Shown piece by piece: positions 33,157 through 64,000 of a stretch of DNA of 64,000 bases. The position numbers and the translations under genes were made by a program. Below the pieces are notes generated by a model. That model searched no databases and had not been told where the DNA came from. It saw nothing but the letters and a program-made list of their open reading frames with translations. The DNA is taken from NCBI GenBank assembly GCA_016125275.1, contig WGMB01000011.1, positions 62,001 through 126,000 on the forward strand, in the 5' to 3' direction. Each line of letters starts with the position of its first letter. Position 1 is the first letter of the stretch. This stretch comes from Acidobacteriota bacterium. GTDB taxonomy: Bacteria; Acidobacteriota; Terriglobia; Bryobacterales; UBA6623.

Positions 33157-36100
33157 ATGGCAGGCTTACCCGAAAACGCATCGTCGGCCAAACGCGCCCT
33201 CGCGATGATTCGCGAGTTGCAGGCGCAGGTCGACGCGTTGCAGTCGGGCCGCACCGAGCCGATCGCCGTGGTCGGCCTGGGGTGCCGTTTTCCGGGCGGC
33301 GCGCAGGATGCGGAGAGCCTGTGGCGGCTGCTGTGCGACGGCGTCGACGCCGTGACCGAGGTCCCGGCCGACCGCTGGGACGTGGACGCCTACTACGACC
33401 CGGACCCCTCCGTCCCCGGCAAGATGTGTACGCGCTGGGGCTCGTTCCTGGACGGGATCGACCGGTTCGACCCGGCCTTCTTCGGGCTCTCGCCGCGCGA
33501 AGCCGCCGCCATGGACCCCCAGCAGCGGCTGCTGCTCGAGACCGCCTGGGAGGCGCTCGAAGACGCCGGCATCGCCCCGCCCAAGCTCGCGGGCAGCCGC
33601 ACCGGCGTGTTCGTGGGCATCTACAACAGCGACTACGCCCACTTGCAGCTCGGCGCGGCCCCCGCCGACGCCCACAGCGCGCTCGGCAGCTCACTCGGCG
33701 TGGCGCCGGGGCGGCTCTCGTACGCGCTCGACCTGCAGGGCCCCAGCGTGCTCGTGGACACCCTCTGCTCGTCGTCTCTGGTGGCGGTGCATCTGGCCTG
33801 CCAGAGCCTGCGCGCCGGCGAATGCGAGCTGGCGCTGGCGGGCGGCGTGAACCTGATCCTGTCGCCGTCGTCCACGATCATCACCTCGCGGCTGCTGGCG
33901 CTGTCGCCCGACGGTCGCTGCAAGACTTTCGACGCCGCCGCCAACGGCTTCGTGCGGGGCGAGGGTTGCGGCGTGCTGGCGCTGAAGCGGCTGTCCCAGG
34001 CGCAGGCCGACGGCGACCCGATTTGGGCTTTGCTGCGGGGCTCGGCGGTCAACCAGGACGGCCGCTCCGCCGGACTCACCGCGCCCAACGCCCTCTCCCA
34101 GCGGGCCGTGATGCGGCAGGCGCTGGCCGCCTCCGGGGTCGACCCGGCCGAGGTGGGCCTTATCGAGGCGCATGGGACGGGCACGGCGTTGGGCGACCCG
34201 ATCGAGGTGGACGCCTTGACCGGCGTCTACGGCCGGCCGCGACCCTCCGGCGCTCCGTGCGCGCTGGGCTCCGCCAAGACCAACTTCGGCCACCTGGAAG
34301 CCGCCTCTGGCGTGGCCGGGCTGATGAAGGCGATCCTGGCCGTGCGCCACGGCCGCATCCCGCCCCATCTGCACTTCCGGCAGTTGAACCCGCGCATCTC
34401 GCTGACGGGGACGCCGTTCGAGATTTCCGCGGGGCTGCGGGAGTGGCCGGAGGGGCTGACCCATCGCTATGCCGCCGTCAGCTCGTTTGGCATCAGCGGC
34501 ACGAACGCGCACCTGATCGTGGAGCAGCCGCCCGCGGCTTCGCCCGTCGCAACCGCCGCGCCACGGCCGAGTCTGCTCACATTGACCGCCCGCAGCGAAG
34601 GGGCCGTGCGCGAGTTGGCCGAGCGCTACCGGCGCCGTCTGGAGGCCACGCCGGACGCCCCGTGGGCCGACGTCTGCCACACCGCGCAAGCCGGTCGCGC
34701 CGAGCTGGAGTATCGGCTGGCGGTCGCCGCCGAATCCCCCGCGGACGCCGTCGCACAGCTCGCGCAGGCCGCGCAGCCGGACCAGATCGCCGTGCGGCGT
34801 GCGGCGAAGCTGTCGCCCAAGCTGGCCTTCCTGTTCAGCGGCCAGGGCGCCCAGTACGCCGGCATGGGCCGCGCGCTGTACGACACCGAACCGCCGTTCC
34901 GCGAAGCGCTCGACCGCTGCGCCGCCATCGCCGACCCGTTGCTGGGGGCCTCCCTGCGCGACCTGCTGTTCGAACAGGACGCGGCCCGGCGCCTCGACGA
35001 CACGGCCTACACCCAGATCGCGCTGTTCGCCTTGGAATGGGCTCTGGCGCAGGTCTGGCTGAGCTGGGGCGTGCGGCCGGACTTCGTGCTCGGGCACAGC
35101 CTGGGCGAGTACACCGCGACCTGCGTGGCCGGCGCGTTGGCGCTCGAAGACTGCATTCCGCTGATCATCGCGCGCGGCAAGCTGATGGCTTCGGTGGCCG
35201 AGACCGGCGCCATGGCCACCATCTACGCCGACGCCCCCACGGTCAGCGAGGCTCTCGCGCGGCTGGACGGCTCGGTCTCGATCGGCGCCAACTTGGCCCC
35301 GCGCCGCACGGTCGTCACCGGCCCGAGCGTGGCGGTCGACGCCGTCTGCGCGCAGTTCGCCAGCCAAGGCGTGGAAGTTCGCCGGCTGGCCGTCTCCCAG
35401 GCCGCGCACTCGGCGCTGATGGACCCGATCCTGGACGCCTTCGAGCGGCTCGTGGGCGGCGTCCCGACCCGGCCCCTGACGATTCCGCTGGCGACCAACC
35501 TCAACGGCGAGATCCTGCCCGCCGGCGCCGTGCTCGACGGCGCGCATTGGCGGCGACACCTGCGCGGGACGGTGCAGTTGACGCGCAGCTTCGAGAGTCT
35601 GGCGGCCCAAGGCTGCCGAGCTTTTCTGGAAGTCGGCCCGCACTCCACGCTCGCTTCGCTGGGCCCGCAGACGCTGCCGGACCCCGAGCTGCTCTGGCTG
35701 CCTTCGCTGCGCAAGGACGCCGTGGACGGCAAGGTTCTGCTGGGGAGCCTCGGCGCGCTGTACTCGGTCGGCTTCCGACCGGACTGGGCGGCGGTTCACG
35801 GGCCCGGACGGCGTCGGCTGGGTTCCCTACCCCTGTACCCCTTCCAGCGCGAGCGCTGCTGGATGCAAAGCGTGGGCGCGGGCGGCTTCGGGAGCACGGC
35901 GGTCGATCCATTGCTGGGCTCGCGGCTGCGGTCGGCGCTGCCGCAGGCGCTGTTCGAGTCGCAACTGAGCTTGCAGGCGCTGCCCTGGCTGGCCGACCAC
36001 CGGGTGCGCGGCGCGGCCTTGCTGCCCGCCGCGGCGATCGCCGTGCTGGCGCGCAACGCCGGCGCGGAGGTTTTCGGCGCAGGCTTTCCGGCCGTGGCAG

Positions 36101-39100
36101 ACTTGGTTCTGCGCGAGCCCATCGCGGTCCCCGAGCACGGGTCACTGACCACGCAGCTCGTCCTGCATCCGGGCGAAAACCCCTCGTTCCAGCTCTACAG
36201 CCTCGACGGAGACCGCTGGAAGCTGCACGCCGAAGGCGCCCTGCCCGCCACGACCGACGCCGCCGAGGCCCCGGAGCCTCTGGAGGCCGTCCGCGCACGC
36301 TGCGTCGAGGAGGCGTCCGCCGAGGGGTTCTACGAAGAGGTCGCGCGGCATGGTCTGGAGTACGGCCCGCGGTTCCAGGGGCTCTCGGAGATCCGCCGCC
36401 GCGACCGCGAAGCGATCGCCCGGGTGGAGGGCGACGAGATCGAGCTGCTCGACGCCTGCTTCCAGTTGCTCGGCATCGTGGCCTCCACGGCCGAAGGACT
36501 CTACCTGCCGTTGAGCATCGGGCGCCTGCAGCGGCTGGGCGAGACGCAGGGCTCCGGCTGGGCGCACGCCCGTCTGCGCGAGGCGCAACCGGGGTCGCAA
36601 CTGCTGACCGGCGACCTGACGGTGTATGACGCCGAGGGTCGGCCGACGCTGACCGTCGAGGGCTTGGCGCTGGGCCGAGCGGCGCTGGCTTCGCCCTCCG
36701 GCCCGGACCCCGCCCGCTGGCTGCACGCGGTCGAGTGGCGGCCGCAACCTCTACCGGCGCTCCCCGAGACGCCGCCGGCGTCCCGTTGGCTGCTGGCCGG
36801 CGGCCCCGGCGCCCTCCGGGACTGGCTCGCCGAGCGGCTTCGCGCGCTGGGCCAACAGGTGGCGTACTCGCTCGACGAGGCCGGCCCCGTCGACGCGACC
36901 GTCTACCTCGGCGCTCTGGACGATACGCCGGCAGCCTGCGTACGCGAGCCTCTCGCTCTCGCCCAAGCGCTGCTGCGACAAGAGAAGCCGCCGACGCTGT
37001 GGTGGGTGACCCGCGGCGCCGACCAGGCCCCCTACCAAGGCGCCCTCGGCGGTTTGGCTGCGGTGGCCGCGCGCGAGCGCCCGGCGCTCGGGTCGATCTC
37101 GATCGACCTCGACCCCGGCTTGCCCGCCGAGGCGTCCGGCCCGGCTCTGCTGGCCTGCCTGCTGGCGGGCGACCGCAGCGAGACCCGGCAAAGGCTGCGC
37201 GGCGGAACCCTTTACACGCCGCGGCTGGCGCGGTTGGCCCCGCCGGCGGGCGAAGAGCAGCCCGTGCGCGTCGTCCCCGGACCTTCGCGAGAGCTCGATC
37301 AGCTTCGGTTGGTTCCACTCGAGCGCCGCGCTCCGGGCCCCGGCGAGGTGGAGATTCGGGTCGAGGCGGCCGGCCTCAATTTTCGGGATGTCCTGAAGGC
37401 GCTCGGGCTGCTGCCCGACTCCTCGGCCCCGGGCTTCGAGTGCGCCGGCGCGATCGTAGCCGTCGGACCCGGCGTTGATGATCTGTCGGTGGGCGACCCC
37501 GTGGTGGCGGTGGCGGCGGAGTGCTTCGCCAGCTATGCCGTCGCACAGGCCTCCCTGACGGCGAAAATTCCGGCCGGGCTGCGCACGGTCGACGCCGCCT
37601 GTATCCCGGTCGTCTTCCTGACGATCCACTATTCGCTCCAAACCCTGGCCCGGCTGCGCGCCGGCGAGTCAGTTCTGGTCCACAGCGCCGCCGGCGGCGT
37701 AGGCTTGGCGGCCGTGCAGTGGGCGCAGGCGACGGGGGCGAAGGTCTACGGCACGGCCGGCAGCGACTCCAAGCGAGAACTGCTGGAAACGCTCGGCGTC
37801 GAATGGATCGGCTCCTCCCGTGAGCTTCCTTCCCTGGAAGACATGCGCGAGGCGGTGGGCGGCGCAGGCGTCGACGTAGTGATCAACGCCCTGACCGGCG
37901 ACGCCATCGAGCGCAGCCTGCGCCTGCTGAAGCCCGGGGGGCGCTTCATCGAGTTGGGCCGCCGCGGCATCTGGACCGCCGAGCAGGTCGCCGCGCTGCG
38001 CCCCGACGTTTCCTATCACGTGGTGGACCTGCTCGAGAAGGCCGCCGCCGAGCCGGCGCTGGTGGGCGGCTGGCTGCGCGAGACCCTGGCGCTGTTCGAG
38101 CAGGGACGGCTGCGGCCCCTGCCGGTCCAGACGTTCCCGCTCTCCGAAGCCGTCCGGGCGTTCCGAACCATGGCGCAAGGGCAGCATGTGGGCAAGCTGG
38201 CCCTAGTGGCCGACGTCGCCGCCGACCGGCGCAGCCACGCTCTGCCGGTCCACGCCGAGGGCGCCTATCTGATCACCGGCGGCCGCGGCGGTGTAGGCTT
38301 GGCGCTGGCCCGTTGGCTCGTCGAGCAGGGCGCGCGCCGCCTCATCCTGGCTTCGCGCAACGCTCCCGACGAGGCCCAGCAGGCCCAGATCGGCGAGCTC
38401 GAGCAGGCCGGGGCAAACGTCACGACGATCGCGGTCGACGTGGCCGACCTCGAAGCCTTACGGGCCAAGCTTCCGCCGCTGCGAGGCGTCATCCACGCCG
38501 CCGGAGTCATCGACGACGGCCTCATCGAGTCGCAAAACTGGGAGCGGGCCCAAGCCGTGCTGGCGCCGAAGATTCAAGGCGCCTGGGCGCTGCATGAGCT
38601 CACCCGCGAGCAGCCGCTGGACTTCTTCGTGCTCTGCTCCTCGGCCGCCTCGGTGCTGGGTTCGGCGGGGCAAAGCGCCTACGCCGCCGGCAACGCCTTT
38701 CTGGACGCGTTGGCCCACTTCAGGGCCGCGCTGGGATTACCCGCGCTGAGCGTCAACTGGGGTCCCGTGGCGGAGGTCGGCCTGGCCGCCCGGATGGGGC
38801 CGCAGATGCGGGCGCAATGGGCCGCCGCCGGCATTGACCTGATTCCGCCGGAGCTGCTGGGGCCGACGCTGGCCGCGGCGGCGCGCACGGGGCGTCCGCA
38901 GGTGACGGCGCTGGCGGCGGATTGGCGGCGGCTGCGCGCGGCGGGCCCGGTCGAGCCGTTACTGCGCGAGCTGGTTCCGGCGGCCCAAACCGGCTCCGGC
39001 GCGGCCAAGCCCAAGTCCGGGCGCCCGCTGGCGGAGACCGTCTTGGCCGCCGCAGCCGGCGTTCTGGGCCTGGCGCCGGAAGCCGTGCCCCTGGATCTGC

Positions 39101-42100
39101 CGCTCAAGGAGCTGGGCCTGGATTCGCTGATGGCGGTGGAGCTGCGCAACCGCCTCACGCGCCATCTGGACCGGCCTCTGCCGGCGACGCTCGTCTTCGA
39201 CTACCCGACCGTCGGCGCGATCATCGAGCATCTGCGCGAAGGCGAAGCCCCGGCCTCCGCCGCGCCGGCCGCCGTAACGGCTTTGGCCGCCAACGACCCC
39301 ATCGCCATCCTCGGCATGGGCTGCCGCATGCCCGGCGGGGTGAGCTCGCCCGAACAGCTTTGGCGGCTACTCGTCGACGGCATCGACGCCATTCGAGAGG
39401 TTCCCGCCGACCGCTGGGACATCGACCAGTACTACGACCCCAGACCCGCCACGCCGGGCAAGATGTCCACGCGCTGGGGCGGCTTCGTCGAGGGGATCGA
39501 CCTGTTCGACGCGAGCTTCTTCGGCATCTCGCCGCGCGAGGCCGCCAGCCTGGACCCGCAGCAGCGGCTGCTGCTGGAGGTCGCCTGGGAGGCGGTCGAA
39601 CGCGCCGGCATCGCCCCGCATTCGCTCAATGGCAGCGCCACCGGAGTCTTCGTGGGCCTCTCCACCACAGACTACGGCACCCTGCAGCTCAAGGCCGGCG
39701 ACCCGAGCGCGATCGACCTGTACTTCGGCACCGGCAACGCCATCAGCGTGGCCGCCGGGCGAGTGTCGTACGTGCTGGGCCTGCAAGGGCCTTGCGTGGC
39801 GCTCGATACGGCCTGCTCCTCGTCGCTTACCGCCGTCCACATGGCCTGCCAGAGCCTGCGGCTCGGCGAGTGCGAGCTGGCGCTGGCCGGCGGCGTCAAC
39901 GCCATCCTCACGCCCGACGCGCTCATCAACTTCTCCCAGGCCCACATGATGGCTCTGGACGGGCGCTGCAAGACCTTCGACGCCTCCGCCGACGGCTTCG
40001 TGCGCGGCGAGGGCTGCGGCCTGCTCGTGCTCAAGCGTCTGTCCGACGCCGTTCGCGACGGAGACCCTGTGCTGGCGGTGGTGCGCGGCTCGGCCGTCAA
40101 CCAGGACGGCCGCAGCAACGGCCTGACCGCGCCCAACGGCCCCTCGCAGGAGGCCGTACTGCGGGCCGCCCTTCGGCGCGCCGGCGTCCAACCGGCGGAG
40201 GTCGGCTACGTGGAAGCCCATGGGACCGGCACGTCGCTGGGCGATCCGATCGAGATCCAGGCGCTCAGCGCCGTGCTGGGCGAAGGGCGCGAACAACCGT
40301 TGCTGGTCGGTTCGATCAAGACCAACGTCGGCCACCTGGAAGCCGCCGCCGGCGTGGCCGGCTTGATGAAGACCGTGCTGGCTCTGGGCGAGGGACGCAT
40401 TCCCGCCAGCCTGCACCTGGTCACTCCAAATCCTCACATCGCCTGGGACCGCCTGCCGGTAGAGGTCGCCACGGCGCTCACGCCCTGGCCGGAGAGCTAC
40501 GAGCGGCGCCTGGCCGGCGTCAGCGGCTTCGGCATCAGCGGCACCAACGCCCACGTGGTCGTCGAAGAGGCTCCGACCGCGCCGGACGCGCCCGCCTCAA
40601 CGGACAGGCCCCTCCACTTACTGGCGCTGTCGGCTCGCTCCGCCGGCGCGCTGCGCGAGCTCGCCGCGCGCTACGCGGACCACTTGGCCGCGCATCCCGA
40701 GCAGAGCTTCGCCGACGTCTGCCACACGGCCAACGCGGCGCGGACGCACTTCGCCCATCGCTTGGCCGTAGTGGCCGGAACGGCGGAAGCCGCCCGCCAG
40801 AAGCTGTTCGTGGCGGCGCCGCCGGCCCCAGCCGTCGGGCAGCCCAAGGTCGCCTTCCTGTTCACCGGGCAGGGCGCGCAGTACGCCGGCATGGGCCGCG
40901 GACTGTATGAGACCCAGCCGACCTTCCGCGCCGCCATCGACCAGTGCGCCGCCTTGCTGGAGCCTTTGCTCGACGCCCCGCTGACGGAGCTGCTCTTCGA
41001 CGGGGGCCGGATGGAGCAGACGCGCTATGCGCAGCCCGCCATCGTGGCGCTGGAGTGGGCTCTGGCCGAGCTTTGGAGATCGTGGGGAGTATGGCCGGCG
41101 GCCGTGTTGGGCCACAGCGTGGGCGAGATCGCGGCGGCCTGCGTGGCCGGCGCGCTGAGCCTGCCGGACGCCCTGCGCTTGGCGGCGGTCCGCGGACGGC
41201 TGATGGAAGAGTCCGCGCGGGGCGGCGCCATGGCCGCCGTCTTCGCGCCGCCAAGGGATTTTGGCGAAGGCGTCAGCGTCGCCGCGCTCAACGCTCCCAC
41301 CGAGACCGTCATCGCCGGGTCCGCCGAAGCCGTGGAGGCAGCCCTGGAGCGCCTCGCCGCCGAGGGCGTCAAGACCCGCAGGCTGCCGATGCAGTACGCC
41401 TTCCACTCGGCGCTGCTGGACCCCACGCTCGACGAGCTGGAGCGCGAAGCCGCGGCGCTGGAATTCTCCGAGGCCGAGATTCCGGTCTTCAGTTGCCTCA
41501 GCGGCGACGCCTCCGCCGACCTGACGGCCGCCGCCTACTGGCGCCGCCAGGCGCGCGAGCCGGTGCGCTTCGCCGAGGCTCTGGCGGGCTTGCGCGCCGC
41601 CGGCTACACGGCTTTCCTCGAGATGGGGCCGCACCCGGTGCTGATCGCCGCCGGGCGCCGCGCCGACGACGAGGAGACCGCACTGTGGCTGCCCAGCCTG
41701 CGCCGGGACCGCGAAGACTTCGAGCAGCTCCTGGAGAGCCTGGGCCGCTTCTACACCGCCGGCGGCGCAGTGGACTGGCGGGGCTTCGACCGAGACTTTC
41801 CGCGCCGGAGGCTGGCGCTGCCCACCTACCCCTTCCAGCGGGAGCGCTACTGGATCCAGCCTGCGGCGCCGCCCAAGGCGGGCCCGGCCCCGTCAGCGTC
41901 GCTGACCGGACGCAGGCTCAGCTCGCCCGCCCTGCAATCCACGGTCTTCGAGAGCGTCGTGAGCGCTACGGCCCCGGCGCTGCTGGCGGACCACAAGGTC
42001 TACGGGACCGTGATCGCCCCGGCGGCGGGCTTCGCCGTCCAGGCCCTGCACGCGGCCGGCGGAGGGGCCATCGAGGAGCTCTTGCTCTCCGAGGCGCTGG

Positions 42101-44389
42101 TCCTGCCCGCCGACGAGCAGCGCCTCGTGCACGTGATCGCGAGCCCTTGCGGCGACCGCACGGCCATCGAGATCCACAGCCGCGGCGCGGATGCGGACGC
42201 CGACGCACCCTGGACCCTCCACGCCCGAGCCTTCGTGGGAGAACCCGCTGAAGCCGCGGAACCCATCGAAAGCCCGGAGGCGGCCCGCGCTCGCTGCCCG
42301 GTCGAGGTCTCGGGCGAAGCCTTGTACGCCCGAGCGGCGGAACGGCGGCTCCAGTTCGGCCCCTCCTTCCGCTGGATCGAGCGACTGTGGCAGGGCGAGG
42401 GAGAGGCCCTGGCGCGACTGGCCGGGCCCGCCACGGCCGATGGGGGGCCGGTTCCGCCGGGATTGCTCGACGCCTGCTTTCAGCTCGTGGCCGCCGCCTC
42501 GCCCGCCCCGGACGAGCGCCTCGCGACGATCCCCGTCGGCGTCGACCGCATCCAACTGTTCGGCCCGCCCGAAGGCGAGCTGTGGGGCCACGCCACGGCG
42601 GCCGGGCTGGTCCGGATTCACGGGGCGAACGGCCTGGTGCTCGAGATGCACGGCGTGCAATTGCGCCAAGTTCCGCCGGAGCTGCTGCGCCTGGAGCCGG
42701 TCTCGAACGACACCTGGCTGCACCGCACGGTCTGGGAGCCCGAGCCGCAAAGCGTCAGCGACGCACCGGCAGGGCGCTGGCTGGTCGCCTGCTCGGACGC
42801 CGCGGCCCGGGAAGCGCTCTGCCGGGCGTTGGGCGAGCGAGGTGGCGAGGGAATCCCCGTCGACGCCTCTGTGGACCGGCCGCAGGGAGATTTTCGGGGC
42901 TTGCTCTACATCGAGCCGACCAGCCTCGGCGAAGCCCTGGCGGTCCTGCAAACCTCCCCGGCGCCGGTCTGGCTCATCACCCGGGGCGCCCAGCCGGTGG
43001 GCGAGGCGGCGTCAGCGGAACCCTCGGCCGCCGCCTTGTGGGGCTTGGGACGGTCCGCCGCACTGGAGCAGCCGGAGATTTGGGGCGGCTTGATCGACCT
43101 GGACTCGGCAACCGCCTTGGCGGACCAAGTCTCCGGCATCCTGGCGGAAGCGCTGGCCCCGGCGCCGGCCCGCGAGTCCGCGCTGCGCGCCGGACGCCGC
43201 TTCGTCCCCCGCTTGGAGCCCGTCGAGACCGCGCCCGGCGCGGAGCTGCGACTCCGCCCTGATGCGACGTATCTGCTGACCGGCGGCTTCGGCGGCCTCG
43301 GTCTGCAAGCGGCCGGACGCCTGGCGGAACGCGGCGCGCGCCACCTGGCGCTGCTGGGCCGCAGCGAACCCGGGCCCGAGGCCGTCGCCTTCATCGAGCG
43401 GCTGCGCGGACAGGGCGTTGAGGTCGTCGGGTTGCGGGCCGACGTTGCGCAGGAGCAACAAGTGGCCCAAGCCCTTGCAACCCTGGCCGACACGATGCCG
43501 CCGCTGCGGGGCGTGCTGCACGCCGCCGGCGCGCTCGATGACGGCGTGCTCCGCCAGCAAACCCGGGAGCGCTTCGAGGGGGTCTGGGCGCCGAAGGCGA
43601 CCGGCGCCTGGAACTTGCACCAGCTCACCGCCGGACTGCCGCTGGACTTCTTCGTGCTGTATTCGTCGCTTTCGTCGGCCTTGGGCTCTCCCGGCCAAAC
43701 CGGCTACGCCGCCGCCAACGCCTATCTCGACGGCTTGGCCCACTGGCGCGCGGCGCAGGGCCTGCCGGCGGTGAGCGTCAACTGGGCGCCCTGGGCCGAG
43801 GTCGGCATGGCCGCCGGCAACGACGGGCTGCGGCGTAACTGGGGCGCGCAGGGTTTGACGCCGTTGTCGCCCGAACACGGCCTCGACCTGCTGGAGCAGG
43901 CTCTGCTCAGCGGACGGCCGCAGGTGGCGACGGTCGCGCCGGAGTGGCTGCGCTTCCTGGACCGGCCGGCGGCGCCGCCGTCGGCGTTGCGGGCGGAGCT
44001 GGAAGCCGCCCCGGCCGCCCGGCGAGAGGCCCTGCTGGCCGCGCACGTCCACGACCAGACGGCGGCGGTGCTCGGCCTAGCCGAGGGGTCGGCGCTGCAG
44101 CCGTCCCAGGCCTTCTTCGAGATCGGCATGGACTCGCTGACCGCGCTGGACCTGCGCAACCGGCTGCAGACGAGCCTGGGGCTGAGCCTGCCGCCGACCT
44201 TGGCGCTGGAGCACGGAACCTTGGCCGCCCTGACGGCGCATCTGGCCGAGCTGCTCTTCCCGCCGCAGCTCGACGAACCCGCCGCCGAAGCGGCCGACGA
44301 TGAAGATTTGGCGGCGCTGCTGGCCGAGATCGAGGCGCTCTCCGAGGACGCCATCGACAGCGAGCTCGCGCATCGCATGCAGGGTGACC

Positions 44390-44397
<8 letters not shown>
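33157..44397 (+). CDS. Modular type I polyketide synthase, two modules M7 and M8 (gene 5)
   Basis: Encodes 3746 residues. The ATG at 33157 is the first start after an in-frame stop. The head ([19 protein letters not shown]) has the coiled-coil docking character but differs from the other heads. Domains are KS (34-459), AT (553-878), DH (915-1175), ER (1372-1685), KR (1699-1929), ACP (1955-2029), then KS (2046-2472), AT (2564-2882), DH (2915-3175), KR (catalytic half 3369-3602), ACP (3622-3705) and a tail with [16 protein letters not shown]. It adds a saturated unit and then an alkene. Its first AT is unusual (see M7). The tail is the most divergent in the window, so the gene 5 to gene 6 contact is probably specific. 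The stop overlaps the gene 6 ATG by 8 bases. Confidence 0.97.
33256..39240 (+). other. PKS module M7: KS-AT-DH-ER-KR-ACP with an atypical AT
   Basis: The KS has DTLCSSSLV (Cys204; Leu replaces the usual Ala), [12 protein letters not shown] and NFGHLE. The AT has FSGQGAQ and GHSLGE (Ser648) but QAAHSALM at 748-755 instead of xAFH. It also has [12 protein letters not shown] where relatives have [12 protein letters not shown]. The extender unit is therefore uncertain. The DH motif [11 protein letters not shown] and LLDACFQ are intact. The ER ([22 protein letters not shown]) is of the M5 subtype. The KR has [13 protein letters not shown] and AYAAGNAF. The ACP has [13 protein letters not shown]. 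The beta-carbon should be fully reduced. Confidence 0.92.
39292..44270 (+). other. PKS module M8: KS-AT-DH-KR-ACP (alkene)
   Basis: The KS has [21 protein letters not shown] and NVGHLE and is close to KS6. The AT has FTGQGAQ, GHSVGE and YAFHSA, the malonyl type. The DH motif [11 protein letters not shown] and GLLDACFQ are intact. There is no ER. The KR has [13 protein letters not shown] and GYAAANAY. The ACP reads [13 protein letters not shown], a Met-for-Leu variant of the usual LGLDSL. The expected product is an unbranched alpha,beta-alkene. KS and AT come from different sequence classes here, so a recombination point probably lies just after the KS, near 40570. Confidence 0.92.

Positions 44398-50817: not shown

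Positions 50818-64000
<13,183 letters not shown>

Follow-up and report, generated by a model that had tools for sequence, protein, structure and literature searches.

Alanine before the catalytic histidine and leucine at the AxNxP asparagine position in a malonyl-type acyltransferase domain of an Acidobacteriota polyketide synthase

The locus and the acyltransferase domain

The window, meaning the whole 64,000-nucleotide stretch of DNA that was analyzed (C15:62001-126000), forms the central part of a modular PKS/NRPS cluster, which extends over approximately C15:40345-134979 and encodes 16 AT domains. The genome is 7.55 Mb in 20 contigs, with a completeness of 97.57%. The domain considered here is the AT of the first module of a two-module PKS protein, whose reading frame is open; it was called AT7 in a preliminary description of the sequence and is AT10 of 16 when numbered over the whole cluster. 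The relevant features are:

33157..44397, + strand: two-module PKS protein, 3746 aa, KS-AT-DH-ER-KR-ACP followed by KS-AT-DH-KR-ACP; the AT in question belongs to the first module
33262..34536 (approximate ends), + strand: KS of the module, active-site Cys within DTLCSSSL
34828..35727, + strand: AT domain in question
34999..35019, + strand: DTAYTQI, the malonyl-type DTAYTQ signature with Ile replacing Pro after TQ
35092..35109, + strand: GHSLGE, catalytic Ser codon at 35098-35100
35173..35187, + strand: RGKLM, inside IIARGKLM (35164-35187)
35287..35301, + strand: ANLAP, Leu codon (TTG, 35293-35295) at the Asn position of AxNxP, within a 13-residue stretch (35284-35322)
35398..35409, + strand: QAAH, CAGGCCGCGCAC, catalytic His at 35407-35409 and Ala (35404-35406) where Phe is usual
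35545..35580, + strand: C-terminal 12-residue segment, His for Tyr and Leu for Phe of YW...VxF
35908..36678 (approximate ends), + strand: DH of the module, HxxxGxxxxP present as a 10-residue motif
37336..38205 (approximate ends), + strand: ER of the module, Pfam ADH_N and ADH_zinc_N_2
38260..38799 (approximate ends), + strand: KR of the module, KR motif present
39037..39234, + strand: ACP of the module, LGLDSL present
39295..40419, + strand: KS that receives the module's product; clusters with KSs downstream of malonyl ATs

The KS Cys and the motifs of the DH, KR and ACP are thus all present in the module. Both Pfam domains of the ER were found; a pattern search of the module protein for the ER motif gave no match, and the printed protein reads HSAAGGVG at the motif position. 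As a separate matter, DTLCSSSL instead of DTACSSSL is found in two KSs, the one at 33262-34536 and another at about 60573-61850; the two are mutual closest siblings (71%), and each lies downstream of a methylmalonyl-type DH-KR module.

By its profile match (PF00698, 209.2 bits against a cut-off of 32.7) the domain passes as a PKS AT. The catalytic set is intact, comprising the Ser of GHSxG, the His of xAxH and the Arg of RGxxM, which binds the extender carboxylate in this AT family, and the GQG motif is also retained. Two malonyl-type signatures are present, a branched hydrophobic residue after the Ser (GHSLGE) and a TxYTQ-type motif (DTAYTQ); at the third, Phe before the catalytic His (HAFH), the domain has QAAH instead. 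The methylmalonyl-type signatures, GHS[MQ]GE and a VDVVQ-type motif with xASH, are absent. The preliminary description had reported QAAH in an intact malonyl-lineage AT that keeps its catalytic Ser, His and RGKLM Arg, and the sequence bears this out, as it does the placement of the other motifs. Further positions differ from most of the 134 outside malonyl-type ATs: Pro follows TQ in 130 of these, and the Tyr and Phe of YW...VxF are conserved in 126 and 130, respectively.

Predicted extender specificity of the domain

Column-wise log-odds derived from 146 malonyl-type and 17 methylmalonyl-type ATs, with the AT in question left out, give a score of +280.9 for malonyl over the AT core. Of the top 25 discriminating columns, 23 favor malonyl, with a margin below 1 bit in four of these, and the two that favor methylmalonyl are that of the pre-His Ala and one further column. 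The core score is the lowest among the eight malonyl-type siblings, the other seven of which belonged to the training set. AT lineage does not equal AT specificity, and a small pre-His residue is also found in other ATs of the malonyl lineage.

Among 152 external malonyl-type ATs, the pre-His residue is Phe in 139, Ala in six, Ser in four and Tyr in three, in a background of loci that were picked by resemblance to the AT in question, or of their flanks, and that is not a random sample. Judged by these counts, a pre-His Ala is uncommon yet recurrent in malonyl-type ATs, and not unique to this one. Because xAAH rows are scattered over several separate places on the malonyl side of a 78-AT tree, the Phe has probably been lost repeatedly among malonyl-side ATs. 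The motif also occurs in two methylmalonyl-type siblings of the cluster (IAAH and VAAH). A whole-word search of the open literature found no paper that pairs QAAH with an acyltransferase. Separately, we note that five malonyl-lineage ATs from Chloroflexota (L044, L045, L050, L054 and L084) carry QSSH, QASH, TASH, VAAH and QASH, respectively, and that the Thr of TxYTQ is exchanged for Met or Ile in them; it is possible that they form a convergent methylmalonyl subfamily.

The earlier proposal that the pre-His residue bears on alpha-branching is supported by the epothilone ATs as described in PMC8058987. EPOAT3, which uses malonyl alone, gives 36% methylmalonyl product once F310S is introduced; S310F makes EPOAT4 malonyl only; and unaltered EPOAT4 (HASH), which is nine residues apart from a malonyl AT, accepts methylmalonyl or malonyl. 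EPOAT4 and EPOAT3 F310S resemble the AT in question in having a small pre-His residue, which there decides between malonyl and methylmalonyl; they differ in that the residue is Ser rather than Ala, the substrate of the present AT is predicted from sequence, and the accessible portion of that paper makes no mention of the Asn loss described below. ThaAT13, which is butylmalonyl-selective, carries AAGH (PMC8044089), and the exchange of CPTH for VASH in FkbB AT4 produced no change (PMC6090053). A small pre-His residue does not by itself signal an unusual extender. Table 2 of PMC4207774 lists malonyl-CoA for FabD of E. coli, which has VPSH, and in the same paper the GAAH of ZmaA is paired with hydroxymalonyl-ACP. 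According to its authors, this pair of Ala may impede methylmalonyl, and ZmaA prefers malonyl-ACP over methylmalonyl-ACP (PMC4207774).

In a tree of the cluster KSs, those that follow malonyl ATs (6/6) and those that follow methylmalonyl ATs (6/6) are split by a 97/98 branch, a count that omits the KS in question as well as KS1-KS3, which lack an ordinary AT upstream. The KS after the module in question is the sister (95/95) of a KS that follows a malonyl, fully reducing module. A KS that follows a malonyl AT plus a C-methyltransferase falls on the malonyl side, which implies that the split follows AT lineage and not branching itself; the split may record module ancestry. The sorting of cluster KSs by upstream AT class (12/12) is a possible cue for genome mining, and it holds less well elsewhere. 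Outside the cluster, the rule fails for three of six methylmalonyl-type rows (one of the six, VAGH, being so labelled on its Gly alone), and the three that obey are near-copies. The outside tree covered 47 of the 55 rows with a known upstream AT (22 + 33); eight near-repetitive rows from genome G004, one of them after a dead AT, were omitted, as was KS2 for its long branch.

Divergence of the domain and loss of the AxNxP asparagine

Of the 52 columns with a conservation of 90% or higher among the 134 external malonyl-type ATs, the domain breaks 9, where the median is 1 and only four of the 134 reach 9 or more; the other seven malonyl-type siblings depart in 0-2 of these columns. When all 162 full-length outside ATs are used, it departs from 8 of 44 columns, a number reached by seven of the 162, and AT15, a methylmalonyl-type sibling, likewise breaks 8 of these 44 general columns. 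Its mean identity to its siblings is the lowest in the cluster (40.7%, against 42.9-46.8% for the other 15 ATs), as is its identity to its best sibling (47.7%, against 50-63%). The KS, DH, ER and KR of the module have identities inside the range of their siblings, and by this measure the unusual divergence in the module is confined to the AT. In the AT tree the domain lies on the malonyl side (nodes 88 and 99) with an end branch of 0.78, against a median of 0.46, although several outside ATs have longer ones.

There is no sign that a foreign AT was swapped in recently: GC1 and GC2 are in the range of the siblings, GC3, at 0.923, narrowly exceeds that of every other AT of the cluster (the next being 0.920), and none of the other 15 has a more typical codon usage. 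No orthologue was found. The best match among at least 79 loci listed has 49% identity by tblastn (50-51% when aligned); in 60 relatives, the genome itself excluded, the best full-length match is approximately 45% and one 110-residue piece reaches 52%, among the matches listed; and the best value in 396 genomes sampled from the phylum, the genome itself included, is 47%, for up to four scored candidates in each genome and E up to 1e-60.

The predicted fold is confident (mean pLDDT 89.7), and its best matches are PKS AT structures. GfsA KSQ-AT ranks first in the PDB by VIA-align (Z 47.6), a match that does not imply a loading or decarboxylating function. The best PDB matches by sequence are the KS-AT of CurL (4mz0) and the module-2 AT of salinomycin (6iyo), which share with the domain their fold (Z 45.3 and 46.4), a malonyl-type GHS[VI]GE motif and the catalytic residues. 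Both differ from it in having HAFH and the AxNxP Asn, where the domain has QAAH and ANLAP.

The Asn of AxNxP is present in 188 of 188 distinct outside ATs and in all 15 siblings, and within this sample is replaced by Leu only in the AT in question. It is also present in 44 of 44 ATs from stretches of ten other genomes, a set that overlaps partly with the 188 and includes one AT with a dead active site. The standard applied here is invariance in this sample, which is not, to our knowledge, a published defining feature of ATs. An alignment slip at ANLAP was considered and rejected, since the flanking VSI and P...TVVxG both stand at their usual distances. All six of the other malonyl-type ATs with xAAH (L054, L081, L086, L090, L073 and L056), which lie on the malonyl side and share the pre-His Ala, retain the Asn, in contrast to the Leu found here. 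The preliminary description counted ANLAP among several changes as mere drift; the changes are real, but this one displaces an otherwise invariant residue, and, judged from the alignments, the missing Asn is a stranger change than the Ala and the most interesting feature of the domain. As an unrelated observation, the first AT (L160, G004:C21:6453-7578) of a 17911 aa open PKS frame in another genome has GCGVGE and EAAR and looks catalytically dead.

A possible role for the Asn is indicated by DynE8, in which a hydrogen bond links the His of GHSxG to a conserved Asn in the ferredoxin-like subdomain, and by the yersiniabactin AT, in which mutation of that His (H640A) raised hydrolysis about seven-fold while transacylation was kept (PMC4186864, PMC12895367). 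Two explanations of why hydrolysis is lower with the His are offered in PMC4186864, either the His-Asn bond or a water-mediated one. We infer that the AxNxP Asn corresponds to N715 of DynE8, the partner of the GHSxG His, because it is the sole nearly invariant Asn in that stretch of our alignment. In a table of FabD enzymes (PMC4633102), His occurs with Asn in EcFabD, VcFabD and SaFabD, and a residue other than His is accompanied by Leu or Met in human FabD and in two enzymes from apicomplexans; the human enzyme combines Leu at the putative Asn position with Phe at that of the GHSxG His. If row 265 of that table is the AxNxP Asn, then the two residues covary. The AT in question breaks the pairing, because it retains the His and has lost the Asn. 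The domain offers a natural test of what this almost invariant Asn does; as far as the available text of those papers goes, the evidence for a role of the Asn partner comes from a single structure and from a mutant of the His with which it pairs.

Readings of the divergent domain

We suggest, with a probability of roughly one half, that the domain is an active malonyl AT that separates malonyl from methylmalonyl less strictly and has a less protected acyl-enzyme. It would act in cis as a malonyl-CoA:ACP acyltransferase and charge the fully reducing module to which it belongs. A pocket without the Phe would tolerate an alpha-methyl group, so that methylmalonyl-CoA might be loaded as a minor substrate, and without the Asn the acyl-enzyme would be less shielded from water and more prone to hydrolysis. 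The module is expected mainly to extend the chain by two saturated carbons without a branch, with a methyl congener as a possible minor product. The observations that argue for this reading are the malonyl lineage, the retained catalytic residues, the presence of the partner domains, the concentration of change in the AT and the loss of both Phe and Asn. It is also favored by the column votes, the grouping of the downstream KS, the F310S and H640A precedents, the lack of a crotonyl-CoA carboxylase/reductase over cut-off, and the presence in the genome of a methylmalonyl-CoA mutase and a carboxyltransferase-family gene. In its fullest form, with the GHSxG His kept and both its Asn partner and the Phe gate lost, the AT would load malonyl and methylmalonyl and hydrolyze misloaded units. 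This version is distinctly unlikely; if it were true, a single module would set the ratio of desmethyl to methyl product inside an otherwise stricter assembly line.

The first alternative is a strict malonyl-CoA AT, in which Ala and Leu are tolerated drift that leaves substrate choice unaffected. The 23 of 25 malonyl columns agree with it, as do the small pre-His residue of FabD and the silent exchange in FkbB AT4, and human FabD shows that Leu can stand at the putative Asn position, albeit together with Phe for the GHSxG His (PMC4633102). We consider it somewhat unlikely, however, in view of the effect of F310S alone in EPOAT3 and of the nine conserved columns broken in the module's one divergent domain.

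A methylmalonyl-CoA AT that arose inside the malonyl lineage, giving an alpha-methyl module, is unlikely. Its appeal lies in the behavior of EPOAT4, in the xAAH of two methylmalonyl-type ATs of the same assembly line, and in the methylmalonyl-CoA mutase that the genome encodes. It is opposed by DTAYTQ, GHSLGE and most other discriminating columns, which are of malonyl type, and by the grouping of the downstream KS with malonyl followers. In addition, the Thr of TxYTQ, which is Met or Ile in the five Chloroflexota ATs with Ser or Ala before the His, is unchanged here, as it is in five Pseudomonadota ATs.

The domain could instead be weakened or dying, with the ACP loaded in trans by a neighboring AT or by a fatty-acid AT. 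The loss of an otherwise invariant Asn, the broken columns and the end branch above the median would fit decay; the assembly line already includes one KS-ACP protein without an AT, which implies trans loading or a module that does not elongate; and an AT-only frame (423 aa), FabD-like in size, lies at C14:836724-837557. Such decay is highly doubtful, given an open frame, intact Ser, His, Arg and GQG, cluster-typical codon usage and a confidently predicted fold.

The remaining possibility is that the domain selects an unusual extender, either ethyl- or allylmalonyl-CoA or, as in ZmaA, hydroxy- or methoxymalonyl-ACP. The preliminary description, which raised a non-malonyl extender as a candidate, had proposed looking for a crotonyl-CoA carboxylase/reductase outside the window; none scored over the cut-off of TIGR01751 anywhere in the genome at its 97.57% completeness (best 105.9 of 378.55 bits), in a search that exceeded the cut-off in one of 14 control genomes. 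A methoxymalonyl-ACP supply combines FkbH with genes for an ACP, a dehydrogenase and a methyltransferase. One FkbH-family gene is present (C18:2770-3750), but among the seven genes scanned downstream of it, two of which have no Pfam match, no ACP, acyl-CoA dehydrogenase or methyltransferase was recognized, and no extender cassette was found among 17 proteins scanned in the flanks of the cluster. ZmaA-AT (4qbu) is similar in having two Ala in the lid loop (GAAH and QAAH) and differs in combining GYSFG, with its bulky hydrophobic residue after the Ser, with a hydrophobic carrier-binding stretch (MCM), where the AT in question has GHSLG and EVR (PMC4207774). Even with the butylmalonyl acceptance of ThaAT13 in its favor, a rare extender is very improbable indeed, because there is no carboxylase/reductase over the cut-off, no cassette among the flank proteins scanned, a malonyl vote in 23 of 25 columns and a malonyl grouping of the downstream KS.

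The domain thus most likely uses an ordinary building block, perhaps less strictly, and not a rare one. The earlier idea of a non-malonyl extender survives to the extent that methylmalonyl is plausible beside malonyl, by analogy with the epothilone ATs. The further suggestion that this module is the likeliest source of an unusual side chain does not hold, because seven sibling ATs are methylmalonyl-type by motif. Prediction of polyketide structures from genomes relies on AT motifs, and the domain is a natural test of the weight of the pre-His residue when nearly all other discriminating columns say malonyl. If relaxed selection were confirmed, it would be a native double variant for producing methyl/desmethyl pairs.

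Finally, several other features of the cluster are of note. The first protein (L010:345-11156, C15:40345-51159) has two tandem ATs after one KS, the second with GHSVGE and YAFH, followed by DH-KR and then by the condensation, adenylation and methyltransferase domains of an NRPS part; it also has three carrier domains. The KS-ACP protein without an AT (L010:11156-13402, C15:51156-53405) has the KS Cys and both His, and by eye its KS-AT linker passes directly into the post-AT linker. The last PKS protein, past the end of the window (L012:8164-14976, C15:128164-134979), ends in a CurM-like KR-ACP-sulfotransferase-alpha/beta hydrolase. Such a sulfotransferase-hydrolase arrangement forms a terminal alkene. 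Haliamide of Haliangium ochraceum (PMC6274090) may be a comparable case.
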